DNA from: Treponema sp.
Lineage (GTDB): Bacteria > Spirochaetota > Spirochaetia > Treponematales > Breznakiellaceae
DNA: 64,000 nucleotides
Assembly (NCBI GenBank): GCA_009777535.1
Contig: WRLP01000012.1
Location: forward strand, 1 to 64,000
Reading direction: 5' to 3'
Shown: positions 44,762 to 64,000 of the stretch, in pieces
Layout: each line of letters begins with the position of its first letter
Position numbering within the stretch: position 1 is the first letter of the stretch
The notes under the pieces: generated by a model
Database searches by the model: none
Told to the model about the DNA's origin: nothing
The model's input: only the letters and a program-made list of their open reading frames with translations
Translations under genes and position numbers: made by a program

Positions 44762-44766
44762 AATTA

Positions 44767-45900
44767 TTACATGGCGGAAAGTGCTTCCAGAATTATATCG
44801 ATCTCGGCATCTGTCGTTCTGTACCCAAAGCTGAAGCGGACCGTTCCGTGCGGAAATGTGCCGGCGGTCTTGTGAGCCAACGGCGAACAGTGCAGCCCGC
44901 TGCGTGTAATAATTCCATATTTTTCAAAAAGATGCCTCGATGCCTCGGCGGCATTGTAGCCGCGCACAATAACCGAAACTACCGCCGTACAGCGATCTGG
45001 ATCGAGTGTTCCGTACAGAGTAACATTTTTTATGTTAAGCGCTCCGGTAATAAAGCGCGCTGTAAGGGAGCGTTCTCTGTCCCGTATATTTTTAACGCCC
45101 GTTCGCAGAATCTCCTCCACGGAGGAGGCAAGGCTCAGTATGCCAGCGGTGTTCTGCGTACCTGCCTCGAATTTGTCCGGAAGAAAGTCCGGCATATCAA
45201 GGGAATCAGAGATGCTTCCTGTCCCGCCGGCAATCCACGGACGCATCCGGCTGCAGGCGCGCTCTGAAACGGCCATGCCGCCGGTGCCGGCAAGGGCGCC
45301 GAGCCCCTTATGACCGGCAAACACGGCCACATCGCAGTATTCTCCCATTGTCCAAGGCAGAACTCCGGCAGTTTGCGCCATGTCCAGAACGGTAAAAACG
45401 CCGCTTTCGCGGGCAATCCTAAAACAATCCGTTACGGGCAATATCGTACCAAGAACATTTGAAGCATGAGACATAACAAGCAGCCTTGTGTTCTCACGGA
45501 TTGCCCTGCGGACTTTCGCCGGATCAAGGGAGCCGTCCGGCTCACATTGCAGCCATTCCAGGTCTATCACTCCGTTTTTATAAAGCGCCTGGAGGGGACG
45601 TGCCGATGCATTATGCTCTATACTGGTGGCAAGAACATGATCCCCCTGCCCTGCAAGGCCGTGAATAGCCATATTCAGCGCCGCCGTAGCGCCGCTCGTG
45701 AAAATTACGCGCAAAGGATCGCCTATTCCCAGAAGATCTGCAACTGCCCTGCGCGCCCTTAAAGCGATTTTTCCGGTATCAATGCCCTCGAAATTTCTTC
45801 CGGCATTAAGATGGGTCCCGCCCAAATAGGCGTAAAGCTCTTTTAGGGTATGATCGGAAAGGGACGGTGAAGTAGCCGCGTAGTTGGCGTATATTGCCAT
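44767..45900 (-). CDS. Class-V aminotransferase, selenium-associated cysteine desulfurase
   Basis: 377-residue PLP enzyme of the NifS/CsdB fold. The PLP-binding Lys lies in FAGHKGLGALAGTGGM and the mobile catalytic Cys in RSGLHCSPLAHKTAG. It matches the EF2568-type subfamily that accompanies YedF and SelD, so it may release selenium from selenocysteine or sulfur from cysteine for delivery to SelD or to a selenium cofactor. No SD; the start follows the yedF stop by one base, implying translational coupling. Last gene of the tRNA-Sec operon. Confidence 0.82.
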   Translation of the reverse strand: MAIYANYAATSPSLSDHTLKELYAYLGGTHLNAGRNFEGIDTGKIALRARRAVADLLGIGDPLRVIFTSGATAALNMAIHGLAGQGDHVLATSIEHNASARPLQALYKNGVIDLEWLQCEPDGSLDPAKVRRAIRENTRLLVMSHASNVLGTILPVTDCFRIARESGVFTVLDMAQTAGVLPWTMGEYCDVAVFAGHKGLGALAGTGGMAVSERACSRMRPWIAGGTGSISDSLDMPDFLPDKFEAGTQNTAGILSLASSVEEILRTGVKNIRDRERSLTARFITGALNIKNVTLYGTLDPDRCTAVVSVIVRGYNAAEASRHLFEKYGIITRSGLHCSPLAHKTAGTFPHGTVRFSFGYRTTDAEIDIILEALSAM

Positions 45901-45901
45901 A

Positions 45902-46507
45902 TTATATTGTAATTATATTTGATGCCTTTGCCAGATGATTAACAATGGTCATCATGTCAACGATACTTCCCGCTGCAAGGGACTCCGTCAATTTATAGTA
46001 ATTTGCGCATGTTCCGCAAGTAAAAACTTTTGCGCCCCTTTTTTCAAGCTCCTTTAAGTCCGGCACGGTGTTTGCCCCTTCCGTGGTTAAAAACGCGCCG
46101 CTGCTTAAAAATATGACTGCTTCCGGCGGCGGATTTAACTGGGTAAGCGAGTAAATAAACCCCTTAATTAACAGTTTTCCAAGCTCCTTTTCACCCGCGC
46201 CCATGTTGTCGGTACTGATCAGCACCACAGGCCCCCTGCCCTCATCTTTAGGGACGCCGGCAGCAAACGGCTCTTCCACAACCTGCCCGCTGTTTGCGGT
46301 TTTGGCTATAATCACTTTAAACACTCCGCCCGTTTCTTCATATAAAAAATTGTAATTAAAACCATTGGCCATCTTTTGGAGATTTTGCACAGCGGCCATA
46401 TTGTCAACCAAAACCACGACGCCGGCAGTTCCCTGATCGGCAAGGCATTTCTTTGCTTCAACCACGGGAATTGGACATGGATGCCCCTTCATATCCAGTG
46501 TTTTCAT
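45902..46507 (-). CDS. yedF: Selenium metabolism protein YedF
   Basis: 201-residue protein: an N-terminal TusA-like domain (MKTLDMKGHPCPIPVVEAKK, Cys-11 in the CPIP motif) and a C-terminal DsrE-like domain with FTCGTCANYY. Members occur beside selD in selenium-using bacteria, and are thought to carry or sense reactive selenium or sulfur. An excellent GGAGGTGAT SD overlaps the selD stop. Confidence 0.85.
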   Translation of the reverse strand: MKTLDMKGHPCPIPVVEAKKCLADQGTAGVVVLVDNMAAVQNLQKMANGFNYNFLYEETGGVFKVIIAKTANSGQVVEEPFAAGVPKDEGRGPVVLISTDNMGAGEKELGKLLIKGFIYSLTQLNPPPEAVIFLSSGAFLTTEGANTVPDLKELEKRGAKVFTCGTCANYYKLTESLAAGSIVDMMTIVNHLAKASNIITI

Positions 46508-46511
46508 TTTA

Positions 46512-47555
46512 TCACCTCCGTTTGAATGTTATGGGATTTGCAGATTTGCGCGTAACTTCCCCGATTATTGCGGCATTTATATCTCCGGCCGAACGAATGC
46601 GCGAAACAAGGTTTTCAGCTTCGTCAGGAGCGGCAGCGATTAAAAGCCCGCCCGATGTCTGCGGATCGAAGAGCATCTCCTGAACAGCGAAAGGTAGTGA
46701 GCCGACATCGACCGTTTTTTCCGCATGGGTGCGGTTGCGCTGCCCGGCGGCAGTAAGCAGGTACTCACCGGCGTACGCCGCCGCGGCCGGAATAAAGGGT
46801 ATGGCTTCGCTGTAGAGCGTTATCGTCACCGAGTCTCCGGCCATTTCCAGGGCATGGACAAGCAGCCCGAAGCCGGTAATATCGGTGCAGGCGCTTACAT
46901 CGAAGCCTGCCATGCTTTCACAGGCATAACGGTTCAGCCTCTCCATGGAAGAAACAGCCGTCAGGACAGCCTCATCATCGGCCATGCCGACACGCATGGC
47001 AGCCATGACAATGCCCGTACCAAGGGCCTTGGTAAGTATCAGCTTATGCCCCGGCTGCGGTGTATTATTTCGTATAACGGACGCAGTCTCCACTATGCCG
47101 GCGGCGGCAAGGCCGTACTTTGGCTCACGATCGTATATCGAGTGTCCGCCGCCAAGTACGGCACCGGCCTCATTTATTTTTTCCGAGCCGCCTGCGATAA
47201 TATCCGCCAGTATCTTCTTGTCAAGCGTTTCGGGAAAACATACCAGGTTAAGAGCCAGCATGGGATGGCCGCCCATTGCCCAAATATCGCTTAACGCATT
47301 TGCGGCGGCAATGCGCCCAAAGGTTTTCGGGTCGTCGATCATTGGCGGAAAAAAATCGACTGTAAAGATAAGGGAACGCTTTTCATCGAGCCGGTAGACA
47401 GCGGCGTCATCGCATTTGTCGAATCCTACCAGCAAATTTTCGTTACTGCCGAATTTAAGAGAGGCCAGCAGGCTTGTTAGAGCGGCACTTTCTATTTTTG
47501 CCCCGCAGCCCCCGCTCGTACAGTTGGAAAGCAGCGGTTTATCGCTTTGCAGCAT
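46512..47555 (-). CDS. selD: Selenophosphate synthetase
   Basis: 347-residue enzyme that makes selenophosphate from selenide and ATP, the selenium donor for Sec. Residues 15-20 read GGCGAK: the active-site position 17 is Cys and Lys-20 is present, so this is the Cys form, not a Sec-containing one. GFDKCDDAAVYRL (ATP-binding Asp), ALSDIWAMGG and GGHSIYDREPKYG follow, with TDITGFGLLVHA near the C-terminus. Operon: tRNA-Sec, DUF3343, selD, yedF, aminotransferase. Confidence 0.96.
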   Translation of the reverse strand: MLQSDKPLLSNCTSGGCGAKIESAALTSLLASLKFGSNENLLVGFDKCDDAAVYRLDEKRSLIFTVDFFPPMIDDPKTFGRIAAANALSDIWAMGGHPMLALNLVCFPETLDKKILADIIAGGSEKINEAGAVLGGGHSIYDREPKYGLAAAGIVETASVIRNNTPQPGHKLILTKALGTGIVMAAMRVGMADDEAVLTAVSSMERLNRYACESMAGFDVSACTDITGFGLLVHALEMAGDSVTITLYSEAIPFIPAAAAYAGEYLLTAAGQRNRTHAEKTVDVGSLPFAVQEMLFDPQTSGGLLIAAAPDEAENLVSRIRSAGDINAAIIGEVTRKSANPITFKRR

Positions 47556-47562
47556 TTCTTCT

Positions 47563-47853
47563 TTAATCCCCTAATGGTATTTTTTCGTAGGAGAATGACT
47601 CCGGCCGCCCCTCGCCGCGGCTCCCCCTGCGCAGATATGCATCTGAAACAGAAAGGCCGCGTTCGGAAAGAAGCGCAGCGGCTCCCACGAAATCCTCAGG
47701 TAAAAACCTCAGGCAAAAACCGCACCCCGCCTGTATGACGGATGGTGCGGGCATTATCCCGACGGAAAAATTCCCCTCGGCAAGAGCCTGCTCAGCGGCA
47801 ATCGCATGAGAGGCGCTTTTATAGCAAACGATGATCTCTTCTAAAAACGACAC
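47563..47853 (-). CDS. DUF3343 putative Se/S carrier protein
   Basis: 96-residue protein: an N-terminal half like small electron-carrier folds, then the Cys pair in AGCGFCLRF (about 43-51). DUF3343 proteins sit beside selenium genes and are proposed selenium or sulfur carriers. The start is GTG with GGGAG four bases upstream. Only 29 bases separate it from the tRNA-Sec 3' end, and it is 7 bases upstream of selD, so the block is one transcript. Confidence 0.72.
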   Translation of the reverse strand: MSFLEEIIVCYKSASHAIAAEQALAEGNFSVGIMPAPSVIQAGCGFCLRFLPEDFVGAAALLSERGLSVSDAYLRRGSRGEGRPESFSYEKIPLGD

Positions 47854-47882
47854 TCGGCTCCCAGGTTAATGAAAGGCAAAAA

Positions 47883-47976
47883 TGGCGGAGGCGTGTGAGA
47901 ATCGAACTCACCAAGGACGTTTCCACCCTTCAACGGATTTGAAGTCCGCAGCCGCCACCAGACGACATTCACCTCC
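47883..47976 (-). tRNA. selC: Selenocysteine tRNA, anticodon TCA
   Basis: 94-base tRNA read on the minus strand. It starts GGAGGTGA, has an anticodon loop CTTCAAA on a GGA/TCC stem, a long variable arm (AAGGG with TCCTT), a T-arm GTGAG-TTCGATT-CTCAC, and ends in an encoded CCA. The extended acceptor and the long extra arm mark tRNA-Sec. The acceptor has one A-A mismatch at the eighth pair in my fold. Its anticodon decodes UGA. It heads the DUF3343-selD-yedF operon. Confidence 0.96.
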
Positions 47977-47994
47977 GCGTAATGCTACTATGGA

Positions 47995-48023: not shown

Positions 48024-48060
48024 TACTACAAGGCCATAACAACTAAAGCTTAGTAAGAAT

Positions 48061-48215
48061 CTAACCACGAACCACACTAACAACACTAACCATTAGTTAG
48101 GAAAAATAGAGTACAAACAAGATAAAACAGCTATATTTCTTTAAAATAATATAATTTATGGTATACAATGGAATATGAAACAACAAGTTCGTGTTGGTTC
48201 GCGTGGTTAGTGGTA
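48061..48215. repeat. Intergenic inverted repeat, ACCACGAAC family
   Basis: Left arm TAACCACGAACCACACTAAC, right arm ending CGTGGTTAGTGGTAAAA, with an AT-rich centre. It lies in the divergent gap between tRNA-Sec and the RNA ligase. Confidence 0.75.
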
Positions 48216-48357
48216 AAAAAATGTTAAAAAATATTTTGATGTTACAACGTACTACGCATTTCTATTGAAAATGAATAAAACATCTGTTGATTTTGCCAAA
48301 AAAATGTTTTAAAAATAATACTGAAGACCATATTAAAAATGTGCCAGGAGGTATACC

Positions 48358-49362
48358 ATGCGTGCATTGGTTACAATTCAAAAAGTAAAAACAATAAGCC
48401 CCATACCCGACTCTGATTTTCTTGAAACTGCCCATGTTCTGGGCTGGCAGTGTGTGGTTAAAAAGGGCGAGTTTCAGGCGGGAGATACCGGCGTGTATTT
48501 CGAGGTTGACAGCTTTCTTCCGGTAGAAGACCGCTATGAATTTTTGCGCACATCCTCGTACCGGGAAAATGTTGATAACGGCAAGGGCTTCCGCATCCGC
48601 ACCGCCAAAATGCGGGGGCAGCTATCACAGGGCCTGTTTTTAAGGCCTGACCTGTTTCCTGAACTGGAAGGCTGCAAAGAGGGGGAAGATGTCACCGAAA
48701 AACTTCAGGTAAAAAAATGGTATATACCGGAAACAGCCAACGACGGCGGTGTGATCATTGGAGAGCGGCCATTCGGGATTCCAGCCTCAGATGAAATACG
48801 GATACAATCCGCGCCGGAGCTGCTCGAACAGTTGCAGGGCAAATCATATTATATCACTACAAAAATGGACGGTACCTCCGGCATTGTATATTTTATCGAC
48901 GGAAAAATCGGATGCTGCAGCCGGAACAAGGAAATTAAAGATGATGAAAATGCCCTGTACTGGACGCCGGTGTACAAATACGGCCTTAAAGAAAAATTTG
49001 CTAAATACGGAAAAAATATTGTTCTGACAGGCGAAATATGCGGCCCCGGAATACAGAGAAACAAACTCAGGCTGCCCGCCATCGAATGGTATGTATTTGA
49101 TGTAAAGGACTGGGATTCCGGCTCGTATTTCCCCTACGATGAAGCCGTCAAAATTTGCGCCGCCTTTGAAATCCCGGTGGTTCCGCTTGAAGAACAGGGA
49201 AAGGAGTTTTCCTACTCTCTGGAAACACTGCTGGAAAAAGCAAAGGGCAAATATCCGAGCGGGCTTGACAAGGAAGGCATAGTGGTACGGGAGCTACAGC
49301 GCCCGAAAGCCCTTTCGTTTAAGGTTTTGAATAACGATGCCCTGCTCAAGGAAAAGGACTAA
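48358..49362 (+). CDS. RNA ligase, Rnl5 type
   Basis: 334-residue ATP-dependent RNA ligase. The N-terminal OB-like module (about 1-120) is followed by the nucleotidyltransferase domain: motif I KMDG with Lys-169, WYVFDV (motif IIIa-like), EGIVVR (motif IV) and LSFKVLN (motif V). The architecture, an N-terminal OB module before the catalytic core, is that of the Deinococcus-type Rnl5 ligases that seal nicks in duplex RNA. Good AGGAGG SD. The gene is isolated; no kinase, phosphatase or RtcB partner is near. Confidence 0.85.
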   Translation: MRALVTIQKVKTISPIPDSDFLETAHVLGWQCVVKKGEFQAGDTGVYFEVDSFLPVEDRYEFLRTSSYRENVDNGKGFRIRTAKMRGQLSQGLFLRPDLFPELEGCKEGEDVTEKLQVKKWYIPETANDGGVIIGERPFGIPASDEIRIQSAPELLEQLQGKSYYITTKMDGTSGIVYFIDGKIGCCSRNKEIKDDENALYWTPVYKYGLKEKFAKYGKNIVLTGEICGPGIQRNKLRLPAIEWYVFDVKDWDSGSYFPYDEAVKICAAFEIPVVPLEEQGKEFSYSLETLLEKAKGKYPSGLDKEGIVVRELQRPKALSFKVLNNDALLKEKD

Positions 49363-49378
49363 AAAAACCTCCCCTACC

Positions 49379-49415
49379 CCAGCGTTATGCAAATATAGTG
49401 ATTCCAAAATGTAAG
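49379..49415. repeat. Half copy of the hairpin element (family C)
   Basis: CAGCGTTATGCAAATAT, then an ATTCCAAAATGTAAGC part. The same start occurs at 56380, and the layout resembles the right arm of the full hairpins at 50402 and 56547. Confidence 0.5.
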
Positions 49416-49430
49416 CCATAAAACGGTATG

Positions 49431-49513
49431 GGAAATGGTACGCGGCGGCGCAAAGCCCTTTCTCGGGCTGACGGTCTGATAGACATACTTTTTTTCTATA
49501 AAACTAGATAAAC
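49431..49513. repeat. Flanking inverted-repeat arm B (left)
   Basis: About 85 bases with GGTACGC, GGGCTGACGGTCTG, AGACATACTTTTTTT and AAAACTAGAT. The reverse complement, with changes, occurs at 56761-56838, about 7.3 kb away. These two copies flank the toxin-antitoxin, lipoprotein and P-loop genes. Confidence 0.75.
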
Positions 49514-49798
49514 CATTATCGAAATTCTTTATTGTATAATTCACTTTTTTATTACCACGCCGTAATCGTGCACCGCGTTAGCGGCGATTTAATAAACTTC
49601 CTTACGATCGCCGACCGAAGGGAGGCATGCCCTCGGCAGGGGAACAAATAATCGCACCCGAAGGGTGTAGATGGGTGAACCCCAATCGTTCCGGCGCAAG
49701 TGAATTTTCCACCGTAAAAATGGCAGCAAGCCTTTAGGCTTGCGTGCGCGCCGCGGTAAGTGCGCCGCTACGCACCAACTTCAATACCTGTTTTGTGC
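49514..49798. other. Gene-free GC-rich stretch
   Basis: No convincing gene. Contains several local inverted repeats, including GCAAGCC-TTTA-GGCTTGC, GCCGAC...-type and GCGCACCGCG segments. It may be a decayed mobile or repeat unit. Confidence 0.35.
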
Positions 49799-49850
49799 TT
49801 ACATTTTTTTGAATTACAAAAGTAATGAAACGCCGGCGGCAAGCGATGAA
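49799..49850. repeat. Half copy of the hairpin element (family C, left arm)
   Basis: The segment ACATTTTTTTGAATTACAAA and the following TGAAACGCCGGCGG match the left arm of the full hairpin at 50402-50526. The complementary arm is missing here. Confidence 0.5.
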
Positions 49851-49861
49851 TTATTTCCTTT

Positions 49862-50098
49862 TTAAGTGGTAGTTTTTATCATTACTTTTTCTCGTACCAT
49901 GTCGCCTACTACCTGAGATGGTGTTTTATGTTCACGTTCTGATATTGTCAGTATATAATTGGCACTTATATCATCAAGAAGGTTCAGAAGTTCGCGGCGC
50001 CGGGTCAAGGGACCGGTGCCTTCCAGGAGTTCCGGCGGATTTTCTGTCCACATTTTATGGAGTTCCCATGTTTCTTTGTCAGTCGGTCTTTTTTCCAT
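49862..50098 (-). CDS. Putative antitoxin of a toxin-antitoxin pair
   Basis: 78-residue charged protein (start MEKRPTDKETWELHKMWTEN) placed after a small toxin-like gene and overlapping its 3' end by 20 bases. The C-terminal half (ILTISEREHKTPSQVVGDMV) resembles a ribbon-helix-helix-like segment. The ATG at 50098 is preceded by GAGGGAAG; an earlier start at 50122 is weaker. Family assignment is not certain; the call rests on context and size. Confidence 0.5.
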   Translation of the reverse strand: MEKRPTDKETWELHKMWTENPPELLEGTGPLTRRRELLNLLDDISANYILTISEREHKTPSQVVGDMVREKVMIKTTT

Positions 50099-50345
50099 GT
50101 TTTCTTCCCTCATTTGCAGCAACTAGCCATTTTTGACGACATGGCATGGCGTGAAATACAAATAATGAGCCGTCATCTAATTCACGATAGGCGACTTCAA
50201 GCGGATTGCCTGCACGATCGAAGCCGATGGCGAGATAACTCCCATCGGAAGCAGGTCTTTCGAAAAATTGTGTCTGAAGCGCCCACTCAATATCAGCTTC
50301 TGCTATCTGGTGAGCAAAGGCTGCATCGTGATACTCAATAACCAA
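50079..50345 (-). CDS. Putative toxin of a small toxin-antitoxin pair
   Basis: 88-residue protein with IEWALQT, DGSYLAIGFDRAGNPLEVAY and SLFVFHAMPCRQ. The fold pattern is like compact RNase-type toxins (BrnT-like), but I cannot name the family. The start is TTG, five bases after GAGGAG. The gene order, toxin first then antitoxin, and the 20-base overlap support co-translation. Confidence 0.5.
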   Translation of the reverse strand: MVIEYHDAAFAHQIAEADIEWALQTQFFERPASDGSYLAIGFDRAGNPLEVAYRELDDGSLFVFHAMPCRQKWLVAANEGRKHGKKTD

Positions 50346-50401: not shown

Positions 50402-50526
50402 GTATACACATTTTTGAATTTACCATATGTGCTGAAACGCCGGCGTATGGGGAAAAAGAGTAAAGTTCCCATTCCATACATCCTACGCCAGCGTTTCACT
50501 ACTTTGATAATTACAGAAATGTGTAC
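50402..50526. repeat. Full hairpin element (family C, copy 1)
   Basis: Outer stem TACACATTT (50405-50413) with AAATGTGTA (50517-50525). Inner stem GAAACGCCGGCGTATGG with CCTACGCCAGCGTTTC and an internal bulge, capped by GGGAA-type arms. The element at 56547 shares the flanks (GGGGAAA, AGAGTAAAG, GCGTTTCACTACTTTG) but has different inner stem bases. Confidence 0.7.
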
Positions 50527-50547
50527 CCAAAAAAGGTAACATGGGGT

Positions 50548-50617
50548 GGCAGAGGCAAAAGTACCGTGTCTGCCACGGTGCTTTTGGCCTCTGACAGGCC
50601 CCCTTTTGCCTGTTATA
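50548..50617. repeat. Two adjacent inverted repeats
   Basis: GGCAGAGGCAAAAGTACCGTG with CACGGTGCTTTTGGCCTCTG (one bulged base), loop TCTGC; then ACAGGC-CCCCTTTT-GCCTGT. Tandem palindromes beyond the family C element. Confidence 0.65.
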
Positions 50618-50668
50618 GGCATATATTTTTGGCATCGCCGTAGCCGTGGAAAAGTATTAGTTTTACTA

Positions 50669-50894: not shown

Positions 50895-53462
50895 ATGAGG
50901 AAAATAGATAATCGAATCTATTCAGGTTTTGCCCTTATTTTCTGCCTGTTAATTGCAGCCGGCTGTGAAAGCCCTGCCGGCAATAGCAGTAAATTTGTCG
51001 CAGTAAGCAATATCAGCAGTGTAGCAAATTCAACAGAGGCAGGAGTTCCGCTTGCCCTTAATGGTACGGTAAATCCTGCAAACGCCACCAATAAGAGCAT
51101 AGTCTGGACAGTGTCAGTTAATGACAATGGAAGCACCGGGGTAAGTATCAGCGGCAATATACTGAACACCACAGCCGGTGGAATGGCAATTATCAGGGCG
51201 ACCATCGCCAACGGAAGCGCACAGGGCATTGCCTTTACCAAAGATTTTTATATTACTGTTAATCCAGGTTTTGTAGCGGTAACAAATATCAGCGATGTTC
51301 CAACAACAGCAACGGCAGGGACACCTCTTGCTCTTAGCGGCACAGTATCGCCATCAAATGCCACGTATAAAAATATAATCTGGTCTATATCGCCATTTGA
51401 TGATGGAAGTACCGGGGCAAGCATAACTAGTATTTTTCTGAACACCACGTCAGAGGGAACAGCAATCATCAGGGCGACCATCGCCAACGGAAACGCCCAG
51501 GGTAATTATACCCAGGACTTTAATATTACTGTGAACGATGGATTTGTAGCGGTCACAAGCATAAATGATGTTCCAACAACAGCAATAGCAGGAACACCTC
51601 TAAACTTAACCGGTACGGTATTACCGGTAAACGCTACCAATCAAAATATTATCTGGTCTGTATCGCCCCTTGACGATGGAAGTACCGGAGCAAGCATCAC
51701 CGGCAACAGTCTTAACACCACGTCAGAGGGAACAACAACTATCAGGGCGACTATCACTGACGGAAGTGCTGTGGGCGACTATATCCAGGATTTTTATGTT
51801 ATTGTGATTATCGTACCTGTAAATAATATCAGCGGCATTCCATCATATATGACAGCAGGTACACCGCTTATTCTTAACGGTACTGCATCGCCTTTTAACG
51901 CAACTTATAAAAATATTATCTGGTCAGTATCGCCACTTGATAACGGAATCACCGGAGCAAGTATCAGCGGTAATATTCTGAACACCACATCTGGTGGAAC
52001 GGCAATTATCAGGGCAGCTATCGAAAACGGAAGCGCACAAGGCATTGCATATACCCAGGACTTTTACATTACTGTGAATGTTGGTTTTGTAGCGGTAACG
52101 AATATCAGCGATGTTCCAACAACAGCAACAGCAAGGGTACCACTAAACTTAACCGGCACAGTTACACCAGTAAACGCCACCTATCAAAATATAATCTGGT
52201 CTGTATCGCCTCTTGATAATGGAAGCACTGGTGCAAGTATCAGCAGTAATATTCTTAACACCATGGCCAGTGGGACGGCAACAATCAGGGCGAATATCTT
52301 CTACGGACCAGACACTGTTTACTATACCCAGGACTTTAATATTACTGTGAACATTTGTCCTGTAAGCAATATTACCGATGTACCAGGTTCCACGACAGTA
52401 GGTACACCGATAAACTTAACCGGTACAGCACTACCTCCACACGCGACCTATCAAAATATAATCTGGTCTGTATCGCCTCTTGATAATGGAAGCACCGGTG
52501 CAAGCATCACCGGCAATATTCTGAACACGACGGCTTGGGGAACGACAACTATAAGGGCGACCGTCGACAACGGAAGCGCTGTTGGCATTGCCTATACCCA
52601 GGATTTTTATATTACTGTGAATATTGTACCTGTAAGCATTATCAGCGGCGTTCCCGGTTCCACAACTGCAGGAATACCGCTTACTCTTGGCGGCACGGTA
52701 TCACCATTGAACGCCACCTATCAAAATATAATCTGGTCTGTATCACCTCTTGATAGCGGAAACACCGGTGCAAGCATCAGCGACAACAACGTGCTGAATA
52801 CAACATTTGGAGGAACAGTTACTGTCAGGGCGACTATCGAAAACGGAAGCGCTATATACGCTGCCTATACTCAGGACTTTTATATAACTGTTAATATTGT
52901 ACCTGTAAGTAATATCAGCGGCGTACCCAACTCAACAACAGCGGGAATACCGCTTACCCTTGGCGGTACGATATCGCCCTCAAACGCTACTTATCAAAAT
53001 ATAATCTGGTCTATATCACCCTTTGACAACGGAAGCACCGGAACAAGTATCAGCGGCAATGTGCTGAATACCACAGCGGGGGGAACGGCAACTATCAGGG
53101 CGACAATCACCAACGGAAGCGCTGTGGGTACCACCTATACCCAGGACTTCTACATTGCTGTGGCTGCGCCCCCGGCCATTGTTCTTTCCATAGATGATTT
53201 TAACATAATCGATGAGGGGAGCGGGGTTTTCGATAATGTACCGCCAATAGTCCTTAGCAAAAGCGCAGGGACAAGCAGAACCATAAATACAAGCGGTTTA
53301 AGTGTTATTGCATGGCATCTGGGTCTTATACAGTTGGGAACCGGAAGCAGTATTACCCTTACAGCCGCTCAGTTTAATACAGGTAACTATACCCTTAGCC
53401 TTACCTTTATCCAAAACGGCAAGCCCTGGCTGGGCAGCCTTGAATTCAGCGTTATCGAATAG
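50895..53462 (+). CDS. Lipoprotein with eight Ig-like repeats
   Basis: 855-residue surface lipoprotein. The signal peptide ends in IAAGC (lipobox, Cys about 24). Eight tandem domains of about 88-90 residues follow (about 34-745), each with a V-x-N-I-x-x-V-P opening, NATYQNIIWSVSPLDNGSTG in the centre and a YTQDFYITVN end. They look like Big_2-type bacterial Ig-like domains. A distinct C-terminal domain of about 110 residues follows. Repeats 2-8 are much alike, showing expansion by duplication. AAAGGAG precedes the ATG. Probably a surface adhesin or matrix protein; the next gene, 9 bases on, is another lipoprotein. Confidence 0.8.
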   Translation: MRKIDNRIYSGFALIFCLLIAAGCESPAGNSSKFVAVSNISSVANSTEAGVPLALNGTVNPANATNKSIVWTVSVNDNGSTGVSISGNILNTTAGGMAIIRATIANGSAQGIAFTKDFYITVNPGFVAVTNISDVPTTATAGTPLALSGTVSPSNATYKNIIWSISPFDDGSTGASITSIFLNTTSEGTAIIRATIANGNAQGNYTQDFNITVNDGFVAVTSINDVPTTAIAGTPLNLTGTVLPVNATNQNIIWSVSPLDDGSTGASITGNSLNTTSEGTTTIRATITDGSAVGDYIQDFYVIVIIVPVNNISGIPSYMTAGTPLILNGTASPFNATYKNIIWSVSPLDNGITGASISGNILNTTSGGTAIIRAAIENGSAQGIAYTQDFYITVNVGFVAVTNISDVPTTATARVPLNLTGTVTPVNATYQNIIWSVSPLDNGSTGASISSNILNTMASGTATIRANIFYGPDTVYYTQDFNITVNICPVSNITDVPGSTTVGTPINLTGTALPPHATYQNIIWSVSPLDNGSTGASITGNILNTTAWGTTTIRATVDNGSAVGIAYTQDFYITVNIVPVSIISGVPGSTTAGIPLTLGGTVSPLNATYQNIIWSVSPLDSGNTGASISDNNVLNTTFGGTVTVRATIENGSAIYAAYTQDFYITVNIVPVSNISGVPNSTTAGIPLTLGGTISPSNATYQNIIWSISPFDNGSTGTSISGNVLNTTAGGTATIRATITNGSAVGTTYTQDFYIAVAAPPAIVLSIDDFNIIDEGSGVFDNVPPIVLSKSAGTSRTINTSGLSVIAWHLGLIQLGTGSSITLTAAQFNTGNYTLSLTFIQNGKPWLGSLEFSVIE

Positions 53463-55901: not shown

Positions 55902-55943
55902 GAAAGTGTTTTGTTGTATAATAAACCAACAGAAGGAGTAATT

Positions 55944-56366
55944 ATGAAAGAAATTATTGTTATTCAGGGCGCCGGTGATCGTGGTAAAACCCAGACAGTA
56001 AAGAAGGTTTATGATTTACTGAAAGCTAAATATCCTAAAGCTAAAATTACCGATTATTTTCCAGGTAAATATGACATAAAAATACTAATGGAAAATGTTA
56101 ATGGATTGCTTGTAGGAATTGAAAGTTACGGCGATCCAATAACTGACCGGCTGGAAGACAGCTTGAAGTGTTTTGACAAGGCTGGCTGCGATATAATATT
56201 TTGTTCTGCAAGAACCAGAGGTTATTCAGTGGATTGGATAAAAAAATATTCAAAAAAATACAAGATAACTTATATTCAACAAAAATATGTTTTTGGAAAT
56301 AAAAATCACCAAGACAGGAATAACGAAGACAGGGCGCAGGAGATGATTAAAGCCGCCGGGTTATGA
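55944..56366 (+). CDS. Small P-loop NTPase-like protein
   Basis: 140-residue protein starting MKEIIVIQGAGDRGKTQT, with a Walker A-like GAGDRGKT at residues 9-16, and GLLVGIESYGDP and DIIFCSARTRGYS further on. The small size suggests a kinase-like or AAA-derived fold. AAGGAG lies before the ATG; an upstream ATG (55911) has no SD. It follows the LRR lipoprotein by 42 bases. Function not recognised. Confidence 0.6.
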   Translation: MKEIIVIQGAGDRGKTQTVKKVYDLLKAKYPKAKITDYFPGKYDIKILMENVNGLLVGIESYGDPITDRLEDSLKCFDKAGCDIIFCSARTRGYSVDWIKKYSKKYKITYIQQKYVFGNKNHQDRNNEDRAQEMIKAAGL

Positions 56367-56546: not shown

Positions 56547-56666
56547 TGCATTTTGGAATTGTAATAATTGTGAAGCCCTGAGGAAGGGGAAAGAGTAAAG
56601 AATAATGTTCCCCTATCCTTCCCCTTCGTTAGCGTTTCACTACTTTGGCAATTTCAGAAAGATGCC
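56547..56666. repeat. Full hairpin element (family C, copy 2)
   Basis: Outer arms GCATTTTGGAATT and AATTTCAGAAAGATGC. Inner arms GTGAAGCCCTGAGGAAGGG and CCCCTTCGTTAGCGTTTCAC. Flanks match copy 1 (50402-50526), while the stem bases differ. Confidence 0.7.
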
Positions 56667-56870
56667 CAAAAAATTCAATGTAAGCGGTACGCAAAGCTCC
56701 ACCGGAGGCATCGGCGTGGTTATAAAAAAGCGATTTACACAATAATGAATCTAGATGTTTGTTAATCTAGTTTTGCTTAAAAAAAGTATGTCTACCAGAC
56801 CGTCAGCCTCCGGTGGGGCTTGTGCGTACCGCTCTATTTTATAGTTTTAGGCATCTTTCTGTAGTCGCCA
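56645..56870. repeat. Long inverted repeat carrying arm B (right)
   Basis: Arms GGCAATTTCAGAAAGATGCC (56647-56666) and GGCATCTTTCTGTAGTCGCC (about 56850-56869), and inside them GCGGTACGC...CCACCGGAGGC with GCCTCCGGTGGGG...GCGTACCGC. The stretch 56761-56838 is the inverted relative of 49431-49513. It sits directly before selA. Confidence 0.7.
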
Positions 56871-56890
56871 TAGCCGTGGAAAAGCCGCCC

Positions 56891-56930: not shown

Positions 56931-58361
56931 ATGAGTAGCTTAGATAGCCGTCAGACCGCCAATGATTCGCTGCGTTCCATACCGGCGATGGACGAACTGC
57001 TTAACTCGCCCTGGGCTGAAGAGCTTTCGGCCGGTCTTGGAAGGGAGCAGGTTAAAAAAATAATTACAGAGGTCTGCGACGGGATAAGGCGCGATGTGCG
57101 CGGCGGCGCAAATATCGAAGCGCCGGTCAGGGAGCTTGCAGAGCGCCGCGCGCAGGAGTTAATCCGCCTGAGAGCATCGAGCAGCCTGAAACCTGTTGTT
57201 AACGCCACAGGCGTTGTTATTCACACTAACCTTGGCCGCTCTCCTCTTGGGCGGGAAGCGCTTCAGGCTGTCAATGATATAGCCGGAAGATATAATACAC
57301 TTGAATACTCTGTGCAGGAGGGCGTACGGGGAAACCGCAACTCGCATATAGAATGGCTTATCCGCGATATAACAGGGGCGCAGGCCGCGCTGGTTGTCAA
57401 CAATAATGCGGCGGCGGTACTGCTGGCGCTTTCGGCAATCGCCGCAGGCAGGGAAGTAATTGTTTCCAACGGAGAGCTCGTCGAAATAGGAGACTCGTTT
57501 AGAATACCGGAAATCTTGTCATTTTCCGGCGCGTCCATGGTTGCTGTCGGCTGTACAAACTCGACCCGCATAAGCGATTACTCCAATGCCATAACAGAAA
57601 AAACAGCCATATTGCTTAAAGTGCACCCATCAAATTATAAAATCGACGGCTTTACCACGGAAGTAAACCGCCGCGATCTTGCGGAATTGGCCGCTTCCAG
57701 GGGTCTTGTGTTTATGGAAGATCTCGGCAGCGGACTCCTTGCCGCGCTCGATAAGCCATTTGCGCATTTGGAGTATTCGGTAAAAGACTGCCTCGAAGCG
57801 GGTGTTAACATAATAAGTTTTTCCGGGGATAAACTGCTCGGCGGCCCCCAGCTCGGTGTGATAGCGGGATCAAAACAGCTTATAGAAAAAATGCAGTCGC
57901 ATCAGTTATACCGCGCCCTGCGAGTCGATAAAATGACCCTTGCCGCTTTTGAAGCCGTTCTGCGCCTGTACCTATCCGGCAGGCATAAAGAAATACCAGT
58001 GATCAAAATGATAGAAGCTGATGAAAAGATTTTATTGAAAAAAGCACAAAGGCTGTTGCGCATAATAAAACAAAAAACTCAAAGCCTCGCAATGGACGAT
58101 CTTGCTGTTTCGGTTGTTAAAACAAATGATGCCGTTGGCGGCGGAGCATATCCAACAGAACGGATGCCAGGCTTCGGCGTATCACTGCATTCAGCTTCCC
58201 GCAGCGCCGAAAGCCTTGCCGCTTCTTTCAGAATGTCAAGTTTCCCGGTAATTCCCGGTATACAGGACGGACAGATCATTCTGCATGTCCGCACCCTGCT
58301 GGACGGAGATGAAAAAATAATCGCCTCTTCGCTGGAGGAATGGGGAGCAAGAGGCGGATGA
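56931..58361 (+). CDS. selA: L-seryl-tRNA(Sec) selenium transferase
   Basis: 476-residue PLP enzyme that converts Ser-tRNA(Sec) to Sec-tRNA(Sec) using selenophosphate. Features: N-terminal helical region ending in KPVVNATGVVIHTNLGRSPL, then TGAQAALVVNNNAAAVLLAL, EDLGSGLLAAL and the PLP-Lys segment SFSGDKLLGGPQLG (near 298). Length normal. No SD; a strong -35 and a -10 near the ATG suggest a leaderless message. It overlaps selB by four bases. Confidence 0.97.
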   Translation: MSSLDSRQTANDSLRSIPAMDELLNSPWAEELSAGLGREQVKKIITEVCDGIRRDVRGGANIEAPVRELAERRAQELIRLRASSSLKPVVNATGVVIHTNLGRSPLGREALQAVNDIAGRYNTLEYSVQEGVRGNRNSHIEWLIRDITGAQAALVVNNNAAAVLLALSAIAAGREVIVSNGELVEIGDSFRIPEILSFSGASMVAVGCTNSTRISDYSNAITEKTAILLKVHPSNYKIDGFTTEVNRRDLAELAASRGLVFMEDLGSGLLAALDKPFAHLEYSVKDCLEAGVNIISFSGDKLLGGPQLGVIAGSKQLIEKMQSHQLYRALRVDKMTLAAFEAVLRLYLSGRHKEIPVIKMIEADEKILLKKAQRLLRIIKQKTQSLAMDDLAVSVVKTNDAVGGGAYPTERMPGFGVSLHSASRSAESLAASFRMSSFPVIPGIQDGQIILHVRTLLDGDEKIIASSLEEWGARGG

Positions 58362-60328
58362 TGGAACATCCGTTTATAATAGGAACAGCCGGTCATATCG
58401 ATCATGGTAAAACATCACTGGTTAAGGCAATCACGGGCATGGACTGCGACCGCCTTGACGAAGAAAAACGGCGCGGCATAACCATCGAGCTTGGTTTTGC
58501 CCATTTTAATCTGCCCAGCGGAAGAACGGTCAGCATTGTTGATGTACCGGGACATGAACGTTTTATAAGGCAGATGGCCGCCGGTGCCTCCGGCATAGAC
58601 GCAGTCATGCTGATAATAGCGGCGACAGAGGGCGTTATGCCGCAGACCAGGGAGCATCTTGATATTCTCAATTTGTTAGGTGTCAAGTCCGGCCTGGTTG
58701 TACTTACCAAAAAAGATCTGACAGATGATGAAACCGTTGAAATAGCGCGCGCCGAAGCGGCCGACTTAATCCGGGGCACCTGTCTTTCCGAGGCAGCCAT
58801 CATACCTGTTTCATCGGTAAGCGGCGAAGGGCTTGATCTGCTTGTAAATGAAATGGAAAGCCTGCTGGACAGAACGCCTGCGAGAAAAAGCCTGGGCGCG
58901 TTTTGCCTGCCCATCGACCGGGTCTTCAGCAAAAAAGGCTTTGGAAGCATAGTAACAGGGACGGTCTACCAGGGCAGCCTTGCCGAGGGCGATGAAGTGC
59001 AGATAATGCCCGCAGGCGCTGCCGCAAGAGTGCGCTCACTTCAGTCTCATGGAGCGAAGTCCGCTTCCGTTCACGCAGGGCAGAGGGCAGCGATTAATCT
59101 TTCCGCTGTTTCGCAGGAAGAAATGGAGCGGGGGGATATGGTCTGCGCGAAGGGCGCCTTTATCCCTACCGATTGCATGAGCGCATGGATTGAAATGCTG
59201 CCCTCGGCGCGCGAAGGGCTTTCCCATTGGCAGAGGGTACGGCTTCATGTGGGGACAGTTGATGTGGTCGCCAGAATATCACTTTTAAGATTAAATGCCG
59301 CCGGGAAAGATAAGGGTTACCCTCCCGGAAGCGGCGGGCCTGTCCAGATTTTAACTGAGTCAAAAATAACCGTCGCTGCGGGGCAGCGTTTTGTTATACG
59401 TTTTTACAGTCCGCTGGTAACAATAGGCGGCGGGCGCATATTGCTGCCGAACGCCTGCCCTGCCCGCAACAAGGCAAACCGCACAGCCAGAGCAGCGGCG
59501 CTCTCCGATCTTGCCGGCGATTTTCACCCTGCATCTTTTCTCGCGGCAATAATCCATGACAGGGGCATAATAGATGCGGGCGGTTTGTTTGAATTATCCC
59601 AGATGGAAAAAAAAGTTTTTAATGTAGTTTTAAGCGGTCTGTTGCAAGAAACAGAAAAGTATAAATTTTTGGAATTTGGCAAGGCAAGAGTTTTTATATC
59701 TGATGCTGCATTCGCCGCTGTTGCGCTGACGACTGGAAAAATTCTAGAGAAGTTCCATTTAGAATACGGCGAACTGGCCGGGCTGGAAGGAGAAAAATTA
59801 TATGCAGCCATGGACTCGGCCGGCAATACCGGTAAAGTAACAGGCGATGACTTTAAGGAACTGCTCGGTATAATGGCGGGAAAAAAGATAATTGCTACGG
59901 TTGTTATGCAGGAAAAGACAATCTACCGCTGTGTGGACTTTACCCAGTCGCTCGACGCTAAATTTACAGCTCTTACGGAGAAAGTGATAAAAGAAGTTGC
60001 TGCCGCTGGCTTCAATCTTTTAACACTGCCGGAGCTGGAAGAAAAACTGGGAGCCAGCTCCGCTGATATAAAGCGGGCGGCAGCGTATCTGCGTGAGCGC
60101 GACGAGCTTAGAATGATAAAAGACGGGCTGTTGTTTTCCAGAGAAATGAAAGAAAAGCTCCTTGACGTACTTGCTTCGATGAAAGGTGATATTACAGTCG
60201 CCTCTTTGCGCGATGTTATCGGTGTGAGCCGAAAATACACACTGCCAATGCTGGAATTTCTGGATTCCCAGGGATTGACTCAAAGAATCGGAGATAAACG
60301 CGTCCTTTCCAGAGGTATAAAGGCTTGA
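58358..60328 (+). CDS. selB: Selenocysteine-specific elongation factor SelB
   Basis: 656-residue translation factor that brings Sec-tRNA(Sec) to UGA codons with a SECIS. G1 GHIDHGKT (12-19), [13 protein letters not shown] (G3), TKKDL (G4), EF-Tu-like domains to about 350, then a long region with winged-helix modules at the C-terminus ([20 protein letters not shown], then [20 protein letters not shown]) that bind the SECIS. The ATG at 58358 overlaps the selA stop; 58361 is an adjacent alternative and an ATG at 58340 has poor SD spacing. Confidence 0.96.
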
Positions 60329-60335
60329 CAAAGCC
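60320..60335 (+). terminator. Weak hairpin at the selB stop
   Basis: AGGCTT-GACA-AAGCCT covers the selB stop codon; a T9 run follows about 14 bases later. A weak terminator at best. Confidence 0.3.
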
Positions 60336-60346
60336 TCATCTTGCTG

Positions 60347-60375
60347 TTGCTTTTTTTTTATTTCTGTGTTAGAAT
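60347..60375 (+). promoter_or_regulatory. Promoter of the AGCS symporter
   Basis: TTGCTT (60347-60352), a 17-base spacer, TAGAAT (60370-60375), preceded by TGTGT. It leaves a leader of about 120 bases. I saw no glycine riboswitch consensus in that leader. Confidence 0.5.
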
Positions 60376-60502
60376 GGCCGGAAATGGGGTGCTTTTTGCA
60401 GACTGGGTTAATTCAACAAACAATAAGTGTCCCCGGATTTTTCATGTGTTTATAGGTTTTGAAAAAAACTTATGAAATAAATTAAAGTTAAGGAGAAACT
60501 GT

Positions 60503-61861
60503 ATGGATGCTATTATGGCAGCAAACGACTGGTTAAACGGTATTGTATGGGGACCGCCCATGCTGATACTAATAGTTGGAACCGGCGTGTTTGTCACATT
60601 ACTGACGGGTGTTTTCCAGGTAACCAAAATTAAAGTATGGTGGAAAGCCACATTTGGCAAAATTTTCAGCAAGGAAGCAAGGGAAAAGGATGCCAGCAAC
60701 ATTTCCCCGTTCCAGGCGGTAACCACGGCGCTTGCCTCTACGGTAGGCACGGGAAATATTGCCGGTGTTGCGACGGCGATTTATCTTGGCGGCCCTGGAG
60801 CTGTATTCTGGATGTGGGTATCGGCCTTTTTCGGCATGATGACCAAATACGCCGAAATTGTTTTAGCAGTGAAGTTCCGCGAAACCGATGAAAAAGGAGC
60901 CTATCATGGCGGCCCGATGTACTACATACAGAACGGCCTTAAAATGAAATGGCTTGCTGTTATTTTCGCGATTTTCGGCACCCTGGCGACCTTTGGTATC
61001 GGTAACATGACCCAGGCAAATGCAATAGCTGGCGCCCTTAACAGGAGTTTCGGCGTTCCAGAAATAGCCACAGGCATAGCAATTGCGATTCTGGTTGCTC
61101 TCGTCATCATCGGCGGTATCAAGCGCATCGGGGCTGTAACTGAAAAAGTAGTTCCTTTTATGTGCATTTTCTACGTCATACTCGGTGTTGTTGTCCTGAT
61201 CATCAATGCCAGATTTATACCGGGAGCCTTCGGCGCCATCTTCGCGGGTGCTTTCAACACAACAGCGGTTGGCAGCGGCGTTATGGGTTATGTGATAATG
61301 CGGGCCATACGTTATGGTATTGCCAGAGGCGTTTTCTCCAACGAAGCCGGCCTCGGTTCCGCTCCTATCGCCCATGCCGCAACATCAGAAAAAGATCCTG
61401 TTAAGCAGGGGCTTTGGGGTGTCTTTGAGGTTTTTGTCGATACGATGATTATCTGTACCTTTACCGCGCTGATCGTATTAACCGCCGGCCTGTACCAGGG
61501 AGATGTTTCCGGTATTACCCTTGTCATGAACTCTGCCGCCAGCAGTGTCGGAGAAATCGGCTCCATCTTTATTTCCATAGCCGTTACATTCTTTGCAGGT
61601 TCAACCATTCTGGGCTGGTCATACTATGGCATGCAGTGCCTTGGATATCTTACAAATAAAAACAAGACCGTGGGTCTGGTTTACAAGGTAATTTTCTGCG
61701 GTGTTGCAATTGTCGGAGCGGTGGGCGGTCTTACCTTTGTATGGGATCTCGCCGATACTCTGAACGGACTTATGGCTATCCCCAACCTTATCGCAATCGT
61801 ATTACTCAGCAAGGTCGTTATCCAGTTGACCAAGGAATATCTTTCAAAGGAAGCAAAGTAA
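60503..61861 (+). CDS. Sodium:alanine/glycine symporter (AGCS family)
   Basis: 452-residue inner-membrane transporter with about 10-11 membrane segments. TALASTVGTGNIAGVATAIY is the AGCS signature; AYHGGPMYYIQNGL and FSNEAGLGSAPIAHAAT are further family motifs. AGCS members take up alanine and glycine with sodium. Next to a glycine reductase component and the Sec genes, glycine is a plausible substrate (inference). AAGGAG SD. Confidence 0.92.
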   Translation: MDAIMAANDWLNGIVWGPPMLILIVGTGVFVTLLTGVFQVTKIKVWWKATFGKIFSKEAREKDASNISPFQAVTTALASTVGTGNIAGVATAIYLGGPGAVFWMWVSAFFGMMTKYAEIVLAVKFRETDEKGAYHGGPMYYIQNGLKMKWLAVIFAIFGTLATFGIGNMTQANAIAGALNRSFGVPEIATGIAIAILVALVIIGGIKRIGAVTEKVVPFMCIFYVILGVVVLIINARFIPGAFGAIFAGAFNTTAVGSGVMGYVIMRAIRYGIARGVFSNEAGLGSAPIAHAATSEKDPVKQGLWGVFEVFVDTMIICTFTALIVLTAGLYQGDVSGITLVMNSAASSVGEIGSIFISIAVTFFAGSTILGWSYYGMQCLGYLTNKNKTVGLVYKVIFCGVAIVGAVGGLTFVWDLADTLNGLMAIPNLIAIVLLSKVVIQLTKEYLSKEAK

Positions 61862-61900
61862 CCGGCGTTTTTAACGTTTTACTTTGATTAACCAAAAAAA

Positions 61901-61929
61901 GTCCCGGCCTGCGCCGGGACTTTTTTTTT
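61901..61929. terminator. Bidirectional Rho-independent terminator
   Basis: GTCCCGGC-CTGC-GCCGGGAC, an 8-bp perfect stem with A7 before it and T9 after it, lies between the convergent AGCS gene and the GrdC-GrdD gene and serves both strands. Confidence 0.9.
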
Positions 61930-61975
61930 CGTCTTCGTGTCTTTGCGTGAAATTTCCTTCCAACTTGCGGCGGGA

Positions 61976-64000
61976 TTACTCCCCTACGAAGCCGCCCTGT
62001 TTTAGAATAGCCAGGGCGTCATGATGCTTTTTACCGTTTACAAGAACAACGGGGCCGGTACAGCCCATGCCGCTTTCTGCGTAAATGCCCTTGCTCTTTA
62101 GAAGAGCCACGGCATTGTCCAGATCGAATATCTCGATGCCGGGTATTTCCTCGGTAACGACTTCCTTGTCCGGCTCTTTGGCGGCGGGTGCGGCTTCCTT
62201 TTCCGGCGCTCTGGCGGCGGCAATGTTTTGCAGGCCGGCGTTTTTCGCCTTGCCATATTCTTCCCGCATTATGCCAAGAACATTGCCCATGGCAAGTTTT
62301 GCGGCGTAACAGAGAGCGTTCGCGACAACCGGCGCGCCGGAAGACCGCGACAGAATAAGCACCAGGCGGTTGTAGGCGTCGCCGATGCCCGGCCCGTAGC
62401 CGTAACCTGTCGCTTCATAATTGCCGCCGGTCGAATAGGCCGAGAACATCTTCATCAAAATATTGCCTGTAAGTGTGTCAGTAACCATCACATCAAAGCC
62501 GGGATTCAATAGGTCGTTGCCGCGCATTACAGAACCGCCGTCTGCCCGCAGCGAGCTGGAAAGGTTTACCTTGTATCCCTTCTTTGCAAGCTCGCCAAGT
62601 GCACGCTCGACAGCTCTTGCGCCGTCCAGATTCAGTATACCCACGCTTGGGTCTGATATGCCCATCGCCTTCGCGGCAATCACGCCATTGACGGCGTTTT
62701 TTACCATTGCGGCAACGCGGTCTGTGTCGGAGGTGCCGGTAGTTGTCGCAAGAAACAGCTCGCGTCCGGCTGCGGGTGTTACGACAAGCCCGACGGTAGA
62801 CACACCGATGGGGAAATTGTAGTGCATGGTAACGCAGCCGCTGATGTATCCGCTGTCCAATAGCTCTTCCATTTTGGCATACATCTGCTTTTCATCGGCG
62901 GCTTCGGCCACTTCGACATTTGTTTCAGTTTTCGGACCGATCAAGACAACGTCGAAACTTCCATTACGCGCAGCCATCTCCGCTCCCTTAACGATATTCT
63001 CAACGCCATGCTCGCTGCCGAGCATTGTAACCCCCACCTTAATCCGCTTTTGCACCTGCGCCGAGACCGGCGCGGAAGCGACTGTCTCCTTGCCGGGATT
63101 TCTTTCCATCACAATAGAAACGCCGTCGAAAAGGTTTGTCATGCGCCCAAGGAACAGGCTCCCCTTCCCCACTATCATAACGCGGTTAAGTTTGCCGGAA
63201 GTTAAATCGTCCAGGGCAAAACCAAGATACGGCACGCCCGAGGGGATATGCCCCTGGGTCGGCGCCCAGCCGGCCATGCCGCGCTCATCAATAAATTTCT
63301 GAATGTCTGTCCGCTCGATTTCTTTTTTCATAACCGCCAAGGCGGCGATCATTTTATAGTTCGCTTCGGGCACATCGCCGGCGCCGGCGGGCTTGGTAAT
63401 ATCGGGGTTTTGCATCTCCACGGCAAACTTGTCGATATCAGAAATCTTAAGTCCGGCCTTTTCCAATGGAGCCGCCACAAGAGAAGTCATGACAGCCTGC
63501 GGAGCGGAACCGGTGCTGACAGTATGCCGCCCGACCAAATCCGTGTTGAACACCGGCGATTTAAAATCGTTCTCGCTTATCAGAACGGCAAAGCCGCCTA
63601 CCACGTCCTCCAGTATCGGAAGCCCTTTTTTTACATGGTCCTTGCCGTTCATGCCGAGTTTCGCCGTAGCGCCGCCGGCAATAACGGCGACATTTTTATA
63701 TGTCCCCGCCCTGACCAGAGACGCGGCAAGAATTAATGCATGCGCCGGTGCTGCGCAAAAGCCCCTTGTGTCCGAGCCCGTGGCGTTTCCCGCGCCGGAA
63801 ATTTCCGCGATGGCTTTTGCAAAGTTGCCGCCGCCGCGCTGGTTCATGTCGCCGCAGGCTTCCTCCGAACATTCAATGACATAATCAATCTGCCCAAGAT
63901 CAATGCCGCTTTTAACAGCAAGATTGTTAAGCGCCAGTACGCCCGACGCCTTTGAAACCAAATTTTCAAAAATAACATGAGCGTTAAGGTTTACATCGAT
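61976..64000 (-). CDS. Glycine reductase complex component C, GrdC-GrdD fusion (5' truncated)
   Basis: 674 codons are visible, and the frame is open to the window edge (it begins ...IDVNLNAHVIFENL), so about 200 N-terminal residues are missing. Residues to about 310 match GrdC, the beta-ketoacyl-synthase-like subunit (VIECSEEACGDMNQRGGGNF, GATAKLGMNGKDHVKK, GWAPTQGHIPSGVPY, MIVGKGSLFLGRMTNLFDG). After a short linker, the rest matches GrdD, the PlsX-like alpha subunit (GVTMLGSEHGVENIVKGAEM, SLRADGGSVMRGN), ending in SGMGCTGPVVLVNG. Protein C receives the carboxymethyl group and releases acetyl phosphate. In clostridia these are two genes; here they are one. A TTG at 63961 in the ORF is not the start. 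Confidence 0.9.
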   Translation of the reverse strand: MDVNLNAHVIFENLVSKASGVLALNNLAVKSGIDLGQIDYVIECSEEACGDMNQRGGGNFAKAIAEISGAGNATGSDTRGFCAAPAHALILAASLVRAGTYKNVAVIAGGATAKLGMNGKDHVKKGLPILEDVVGGFAVLISENDFKSPVFNTDLVGRHTVSTGSAPQAVMTSLVAAPLEKAGLKISDIDKFAVEMQNPDITKPAGAGDVPEANYKMIAALAVMKKEIERTDIQKFIDERGMAGWAPTQGHIPSGVPYLGFALDDLTSGKLNRVMIVGKGSLFLGRMTNLFDGVSIVMERNPGKETVASAPVSAQVQKRIKVGVTMLGSEHGVENIVKGAEMAARNGSFDVVLIGPKTETNVEVAEAADEKQMYAKMEELLDSGYISGCVTMHYNFPIGVSTVGLVVTPAAGRELFLATTTGTSDTDRVAAMVKNAVNGVIAAKAMGISDPSVGILNLDGARAVERALGELAKKGYKVNLSSSLRADGGSVMRGNDLLNPGFDVMVTDTLTGNILMKMFSAYSTGGNYEATGYGYGPGIGDAYNRLVLILSRSSGAPVVANALCYAAKLAMGNVLGIMREEYGKAKNAGLQNIAAARAPEKEAAPAAKEPDKEVVTEEIPGIEIFDLDNAVALLKSKGIYAESGMGCTGPVVLVNGKKHHDALAILKQGGFVGE

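Follow-up and report, generated by a model that had tools for sequence, protein, structure and literature searches.

A selenocysteine decoding module beside a selenium-dependent glycine reductase operon in a relative of termite-gut treponemes

The clostridial glycine reductase is encoded by the operon grdX-trxB-trxA-grdE-grdA-grdB-grdC-grdD, with selenocysteine (Sec) in GrdA and GrdB, a Sec insertion sequence (SECIS) at grdB and the trxA and trxB genes inside the operon. The same pathway exists in a treponeme, T. denticola, together with an alanine/glycine:cation symporter (AGCS) and Sec; glycine is converted there mainly to acetate via glycine reductase, and the AGCS gene is upregulated alongside (PMC3946380). 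We analyzed a stretch of 64,000 nucleotides (the window; positions 1-64000 of contig C12, 87,388 bases) from a draft genome (G000; 2.77 Mb, 47 contigs, 92.8% complete) of Treponema sp., a spirochete related to termite-gut treponemes. The contig sequence to the right of the window was also analyzed, and grd coordinates above 64000 are contig coordinates. The gene set and gene order of the clostridial operon are found at this locus, unlike in T. denticola, where the components are scattered (TDE0077/78, TDE2119/20, TDE0745, TDE0239/40) and GrdC and GrdD are separate. Our results make it very probable that a complete Sec decoding module lies here beside a complete Sec-dependent glycine reductase, that the sel genes are native and the grd genes came from Firmicutes, and that the 9-kb gap between tRNA-Sec and selA has no function. 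The whole system is Sec machinery plus a glycine reductase of known kind, a new member with textbook biochemistry.

Genes were called against curated profile cut-offs (TIGR, NF, Pfam and Rfam models) and tRNAs were identified with ARAGORN and Rfam. ARAGORN and the profile models recovered the selenium and glycine genes listed in the initial annotation of this region: tRNA-Sec, selD, selA, selB, DUF3343, yedF, a class-V aminotransferase, a GrdC-GrdD fusion and an AGCS symporter. The features of the Sec machinery are the following:

47883-47976, minus strand: tRNA-Sec, anticodon UCA (ARAGORN; Rfam RF01852, 78.5 bits, E 1.9e-14)
47563-47853, minus strand: DUF3343, putative Se/S carrier (Se_S_carrier, PF11823; 54.4 bits against a cut-off of 25), found behind tRNA-Sec in many relatives
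46512-47555, minus strand: selD, selenide-water dikinase (TIGR00476, 371 bits against 125)
45902-46507, minus strand: yedF, TusA-DsrE-like selenium metabolism protein (TIGR03527, 186 bits against 110)
44767-45900, minus strand: class-V aminotransferase, SclA-like Sec lyase (best model NF040779, 464 bits; PF00266)
56931-58361, plus strand: selA, L-seryl-tRNA(Sec) selenium transferase (TIGR00474, 523 bits against 268)
58340-60328, plus strand: selB, Sec-specific elongation factor (TIGR00475, 354 bits against 242)
60503-61861, plus strand: agcS, alanine/glycine:cation symporter (TIGR00835, 504 bits against 273)

These genes form two units. The first is read on the minus strand from tRNA-Sec (47976-47883) through DUF3343, selD and yedF to the lyase (ending at 44767), with intergenic gaps of at most 30 bases; the lyase is termed SclA-like only, its score lying under the curated SclA cut-off (464 vs 525 bits for NF040779). 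The second unit, selA-selB-agcS, occupies 56931-61861 on the plus strand, with selA and selB overlapping by 22 bp. The grd operon converges on it from the right, in the transcription order grdX (69640-69245), trxB, trxA, grdE, grdA, grdB and grdCD (to 61976):

69245-69640, minus strand, outside the window: grdX (GrdX model over cut-off)
68296-69264, minus strand, outside the window: trxB (profile search)
67829-68149, minus strand, outside the window: trxA (profile search)
66524-67810, minus strand, outside the window: grdE (profile search)
65992-66468, minus strand, outside the window: grdA, UGA-Sec (NF040748, 267 bits against 130)
64662-65972, minus strand, outside the window: grdB, UGA-Sec (TIGR01917, 740 bits against 602)
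61976-64531, minus strand, within the window 61976-64000: grdC-grdD fusion (NF040746 and NF040747)

Of the fusion, only the C-terminal part is inside the window. The region had initially been read as one functional unit for selenium-dependent glycine fermentation. The continuation of the operon bears this out, since grdB(Sec), grdA(Sec), grdE, trxA, trxB and grdX follow on the same contig, with grdB and grdA just past 64000. Both selenoprotein genes have the in-frame TGA that the initial annotation proposed to look for. The TGA of grdB (64925-64923; motif STU-GTCTRCG) is followed by 86 further codons in the same frame, giving a full-length GrdB of 436 aa. Reading through the TGA of grdA (66339-66337; CFVU-TAAGAMD) likewise yields a full-length protein, far over the cut-off of the GrdA model. 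A match to Rfam SECIS_4 begins right at the grdB UGA (63.1 bits against a cut-off of 38) and holds the perfect hairpin CGUUGC-GGU-GCAACG. The folding z-score of that stretch is unremarkable, so its support is the family match and not the energy. The stem-loop 3' of the grdA UGA has a z-score of -2.36 (5 of 200 shuffles as good) and no Rfam match. The parts that define the Sec decoding trait are thus all present: a UCA tRNA-Sec, SelA, SelB and SelD over their cut-offs, and at least one UGA gene with a SECIS (grdB).

The operon is of the glycine type. GrdB passes the glycine model TIGR01917 (740 vs 602) and stays under the cut-offs for sarcosine GrdF (710 vs 800) and betaine GrdH (585 vs 775), and GrdE is below the GrdG exception cut-off (690 vs 780). 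GrdC and GrdD share a single frame of 851 aa, with NF040746 (GrdC, 799 bits) at 4-478 and NF040747 (GrdD, 524 bits) at 484-849; Cys824, in the motif GMGCTGPV, is invariant across the four fused proteins compared. This fusion was at first thought notable, but it is common in Firmicutes. It occurs in Terrisporobacter mayombei and many Defluviitaleaceae, the two proteins being separate in most clostridia listed, and we rejected the idea that the fusion is new given the many fused Firmicute copies. In a search of solved structures, none matched GrdB, and the GrdD half gave only weak PlsX matches.

The enzyme roles in the following scheme are established family knowledge. Glycine would be imported by the AGCS symporter and activated by protein B (the pyruvoyl/Sec enzyme, GrdB plus GrdE), and GrdA would receive the carboxymethyl group on its Sec. 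The fused GrdC-GrdD would release this group as acetyl phosphate, from which acetate kinase, an enzyme outside glycine reductase proper, would make ATP and acetate; reducing power would come from TrxA/TrxB. The SclA-like lyase, YedF, DUF3343 and SelD would supply selenophosphate, SelA would charge tRNA-Sec, and SelB would bring it to the UGA codons in both selenoprotein genes, grdA and grdB. Glycine fermentation, best known from clostridia and oral treponemes, is thus a probable capacity of some spirochetes in the termite-gut group. A 2026 metabolic survey of large termite spirochetes mentions neither glycine nor selenium (PMC13067680), and our literature search on glycine reductase and termite spirochetes returned incidental mention only. 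The surprise to a specialist is modest, as the general biochemistry is textbook.

We then compared the histories of the two gene sets. The GrdCD of the window groups with those of G002 (a congener), G079 and G160 and nests among termite-gut Defluviitaleaceae (Firmicutes; bootstrap 99-100), together with one Cloacimonadota-labelled bin. That bin aside, the Defluviitaleaceae are the nearest well-supported non-treponeme clade; their fused GrdCD proteins are 65-72% identical (L152, L158, L159, L164), and no sel genes were found within the grd flanks examined in these four Firmicute loci. GrdCD of T. putidum, a close relative of T. denticola, is 51% identical and branches elsewhere in the tree. A single origin of GrdCD in all grd-positive spirochetes, including GrdC plus GrdD of T. 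putidum and of other families of the order, was rejected (p-AU, approximately unbiased test, 1.2e-44): forcing spirochete GrdCD into one clade lowers the likelihood by 198 units, in a test run without the divergent G185 copy. The GrdE+A+B tree gives the same nearest neighbors as GrdCD. SelA and SelD, on the other hand, fall next to G002 within the clade of the family itself, SelA also with genus g41. The sel genes therefore appear native and the grd genes foreign, and from trees and synteny we infer that the former are the family's own and the latter were borrowed from gut Firmicutes.

The whole island, Sec machinery included, could have arrived in one piece with grd from a Firmicute. Sec and Grd genes do share one interval and are both rare in the genus, and the whole Sec trait is documented to have been transferred in other cases, T. 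denticola and Photobacterium being one example (PMC5029168). However, SelA is 57-68% identical to other family members (two distant ones aside) and only 38-45% to that of Firmicutes with nearby grd, besides grouping with G002 and g41, and we hold acquisition in one piece to be very unlikely. A separate origin of the two gene sets would make this a route of spread for a Sec-dependent pathway in which the enzyme crosses phyla and the decoding machinery stays native. In the literature searched, we did not find this lateral transfer of grd described.

The distribution of these genes was examined in the genus, family and order. At E 0.001, the tRNA-Sec search of the genus picked up ordinary tRNAs with scores under the gathering score in each genome, and the tRNA-Sec counts include nothing below the cut-off; as the genomes are mostly incomplete drafts, all counts are lower bounds. 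tRNA-Sec was found in 2 of 40 genus genomes and grdB in 3 of 40, and of the 12 genus genomes with completeness of 90% or more and contamination of 5% or less, only two have one or the other. The family has GrdCD in 5/150 genomes and selA in 28/150, and GrdC occurs in 18 of the 394 genomes of the order. A short contig (L233, G004:C207) of a further congener (G004, 69% complete) carries grdB and grdA; no tRNA-Sec over cut-off was found in this genome.

Because selA is found in 28 family genomes and GrdCD in only five, Sec serves something else in most relatives, and the same counts would fit a machinery that mainly serves another selenoprotein here as well (e.g., formate dehydrogenase), its proximity to grd being coincidental. 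We consider this unlikely: Sec and Grd co-occur within the genus (both in G000 and G002, while in the incomplete G004 grdB was found and tRNA-Sec was not), grdA and grdB of this locus need Sec decoding to work, and G113, a genome of genus g41, has grdCD, tRNA-Sec and selD within 11 kb. In G113 (L041:1-11514), grdCD is followed by two fatty-acid-type genes and tRNA-Sec and then, past 5.4 kb of other genes, by DUF3343-selD-yedF. The two genes behind grdCD resemble, by the look of their sequences only, an enoyl-CoA hydratase and a 3-hydroxyacyl-CoA dehydrogenase.

It is possible, if somewhat short of an even chance, that treponemes of the termite gut acquired grd from Firmicutes living in the same gut, keeping it chiefly in the presence of a Sec machinery. 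If so, borrowed selenoprotein genes were placed beside native Sec genes in one island, and the gained Sec enzyme would help keep, or cluster, the Sec trait in a mostly Sec-lacking genus.

The two Sec units are 8954 bp apart (tRNA-Sec to selA). The initial annotation took the module to be split by an accessory block. On that view, one ancestral selenium-glycine cluster, inherited vertically in treponemes, would have been broken up recently by a 9-kb insertion. In G078 (4,059,867 bp), which we take to be probably Treponema primitia ZAS-2, all Sec-machinery genes are indeed contiguous within 6.8 kb, and the 9-kb block here has foldback repeats at either end. The units of G078 are the same (tRNA-Sec-DUF3343-selD-yedF-SclA and selA-selB, 53-72% protein identity), but selA-selB converge on SclA-yedF-selD-DUF3343-tRNA-Sec, so that selB and SclA meet tail to tail, whereas tRNA-Sec and selA stand head to head in the window. 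Insertion alone cannot turn one layout into the other, since the junctions differ. GrdCD was moreover not found in G078 or in 145 of the 150 family genomes searched, and the Grd tree is Firmicute-like. Descent from one such cluster is largely refuted, and we hold it to be very unlikely.

Other relatives point the same way as to gene order. G172 is laid out as G078, with selB and selA some 4 kb apart; G049, G099, G178, G056 and G185 have tRNA-Sec immediately before selA, an adjacency that the initial annotation had suggested seeking; and in G002, tRNA-Sec, selD, selA, grdB and grdCD are spread over five contigs. The steadiest unit across relatives is tRNA-Sec-DUF3343-selD, and the 9-kb spacing recurs in no relative examined. 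The junction seen here is not the ancestral one, if there was any. From the gene order of about 20 relatives we rejected the block as an insertion into an ancestral unit: of the proposed split, the gap and its non-selenium genes stand, the breaking of one ancestral unit does not. The architecture that first drew attention is ordinary genome rearrangement, and the gap is most likely neighboring unrelated DNA between two separately transcribed units, without functional meaning.

The left flank of the island is a tetratricopeptide-repeat (TPR) gene:

42622-44610, plus strand: TPR-repeat gene, last of the conserved block phoH-HD-ybeY-corC-TPR, which most of the 40 genomes of the genus share

The nucleotide match to this block ends at about 44.54 kb of the window. 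Past TPR, many congeners encode a secreted protein (about 400 aa), in some cases followed by an ABC pair, and then carry recN- and nadK-looking genes. The distance from TPR to guaD is 1.4 kb in the Sec-lacking congener G027, where guaD lies behind the secreted protein, and 26 kb in the window genome, whose guaD is 66% identical and where the island lies in between. This is consistent with insertion of the sel and grd island (~26 kb) between TPR and guaD.

Several points weigh against a native module joined by a functional, transferred operon. What the locus itself displays is gene content, UGA codons and one SECIS; function is deduced from families. Acetate kinase (TIGR00016) was not detected in the draft genome, although the same check, on 33 genomes that are nearly all from treponeme relatives, gave a match in 31. 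Genus-wide loss was rejected, as congeners have the gene; for G000 alone, an assembly gap is the likeliest explanation and loss the alternative, and the last energy step is a predicted one. TrxA+TrxB fall within Firmicutes away from G079 and G160; this placement apart from other treponeme operons suggests mosaic exchange and points to a more mosaic operon history than one transfer. The donor and the direction of transfer are read from metagenome-assembled genomes. The Cloacimonadota-labelled bin (L168, contig WRLO01000045.1) has a GrdCD 76% identical to that of the window and no other grd or sel gene in the 20 kb examined, reflecting either transfer or misbinning. Finally, G027 is the only congener in which TPR and guaD were seen so close together.

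The gap itself contains the following features:

48358-49362, plus strand: RNA ligase, DRB0094 type (PF09414, E 1.4e-26); accessory, no selenium link
49862-50345, minus strand: two overlapping small open reading frames (ORFs) of 86 and 88 aa; other genomes of the genus hold related DNA
50895-53462, plus strand: 855-aa repeat protein with a lipoprotein-like start; internal repeats 71-75% identical; accessory
53472-55901, plus strand: 809-aa BspA-type leucine-rich lipoprotein (LRR_5, E 7.7e-95; LPAM_1); accessory
55911-56366, plus strand: 151-aa ORF with a P-loop-like GxxxxGKT start; accessory, no Pfam match over cut-off

The RNA ligase meets Pfam RNA_ligase and misses the curated DRB0094 cut-off (TIGR02306, 137.5 vs 151 bits). 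It is widespread in the genus, with copies 72-83% identical at unrelated sites in Sec-lacking congeners. The two small ORFs had been called a toxin-antitoxin pair, a label that Pfam does not support: it gives nothing for one and DUF4258 below cut-off (E 0.059) for the other. A Pfam scan of the 855-aa protein returned no credible domain. The 151-aa ORF, 6.5 kb from the RNA ligase, has weak polynucleotide-kinase-type matches (HAD_PNKP, E 0.01; HMUD2, E 0.04) and possibly has a nucleic-acid repair role.

Intergenic foldback repeats occur at about 44.6, 48.1, 49.4-49.8, 50.4-50.7, 56.4-56.9 and 70.5-70.7 kb, that is, at most joints of the island, and related copies are found elsewhere in this genome and in the genus. 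They may have helped assemble the island; such repeats are too common for this role to be proven. Two elements resembling miniature inverted-repeat transposable elements, with termini of the CACGAACC...TTAGTGTGGTT type, flank the tRNA-Sec operon at both ends (window 44611-44766 and 48050-48250), and congeners as well as other parts of the contig carry related termini. Joints of the island also hold a second family of intergenic repeats, which fold strongly (window 49406-49807, 50405-50654 and 56597-56887; contig 70501-70678), and the repeat DNA of 49406-49807 matches several other contigs of this genome. Just upstream of grdX, at 69723-70367 of contig C12, is a gene for a putative endonuclease of the Uma2 (DUF820) type.

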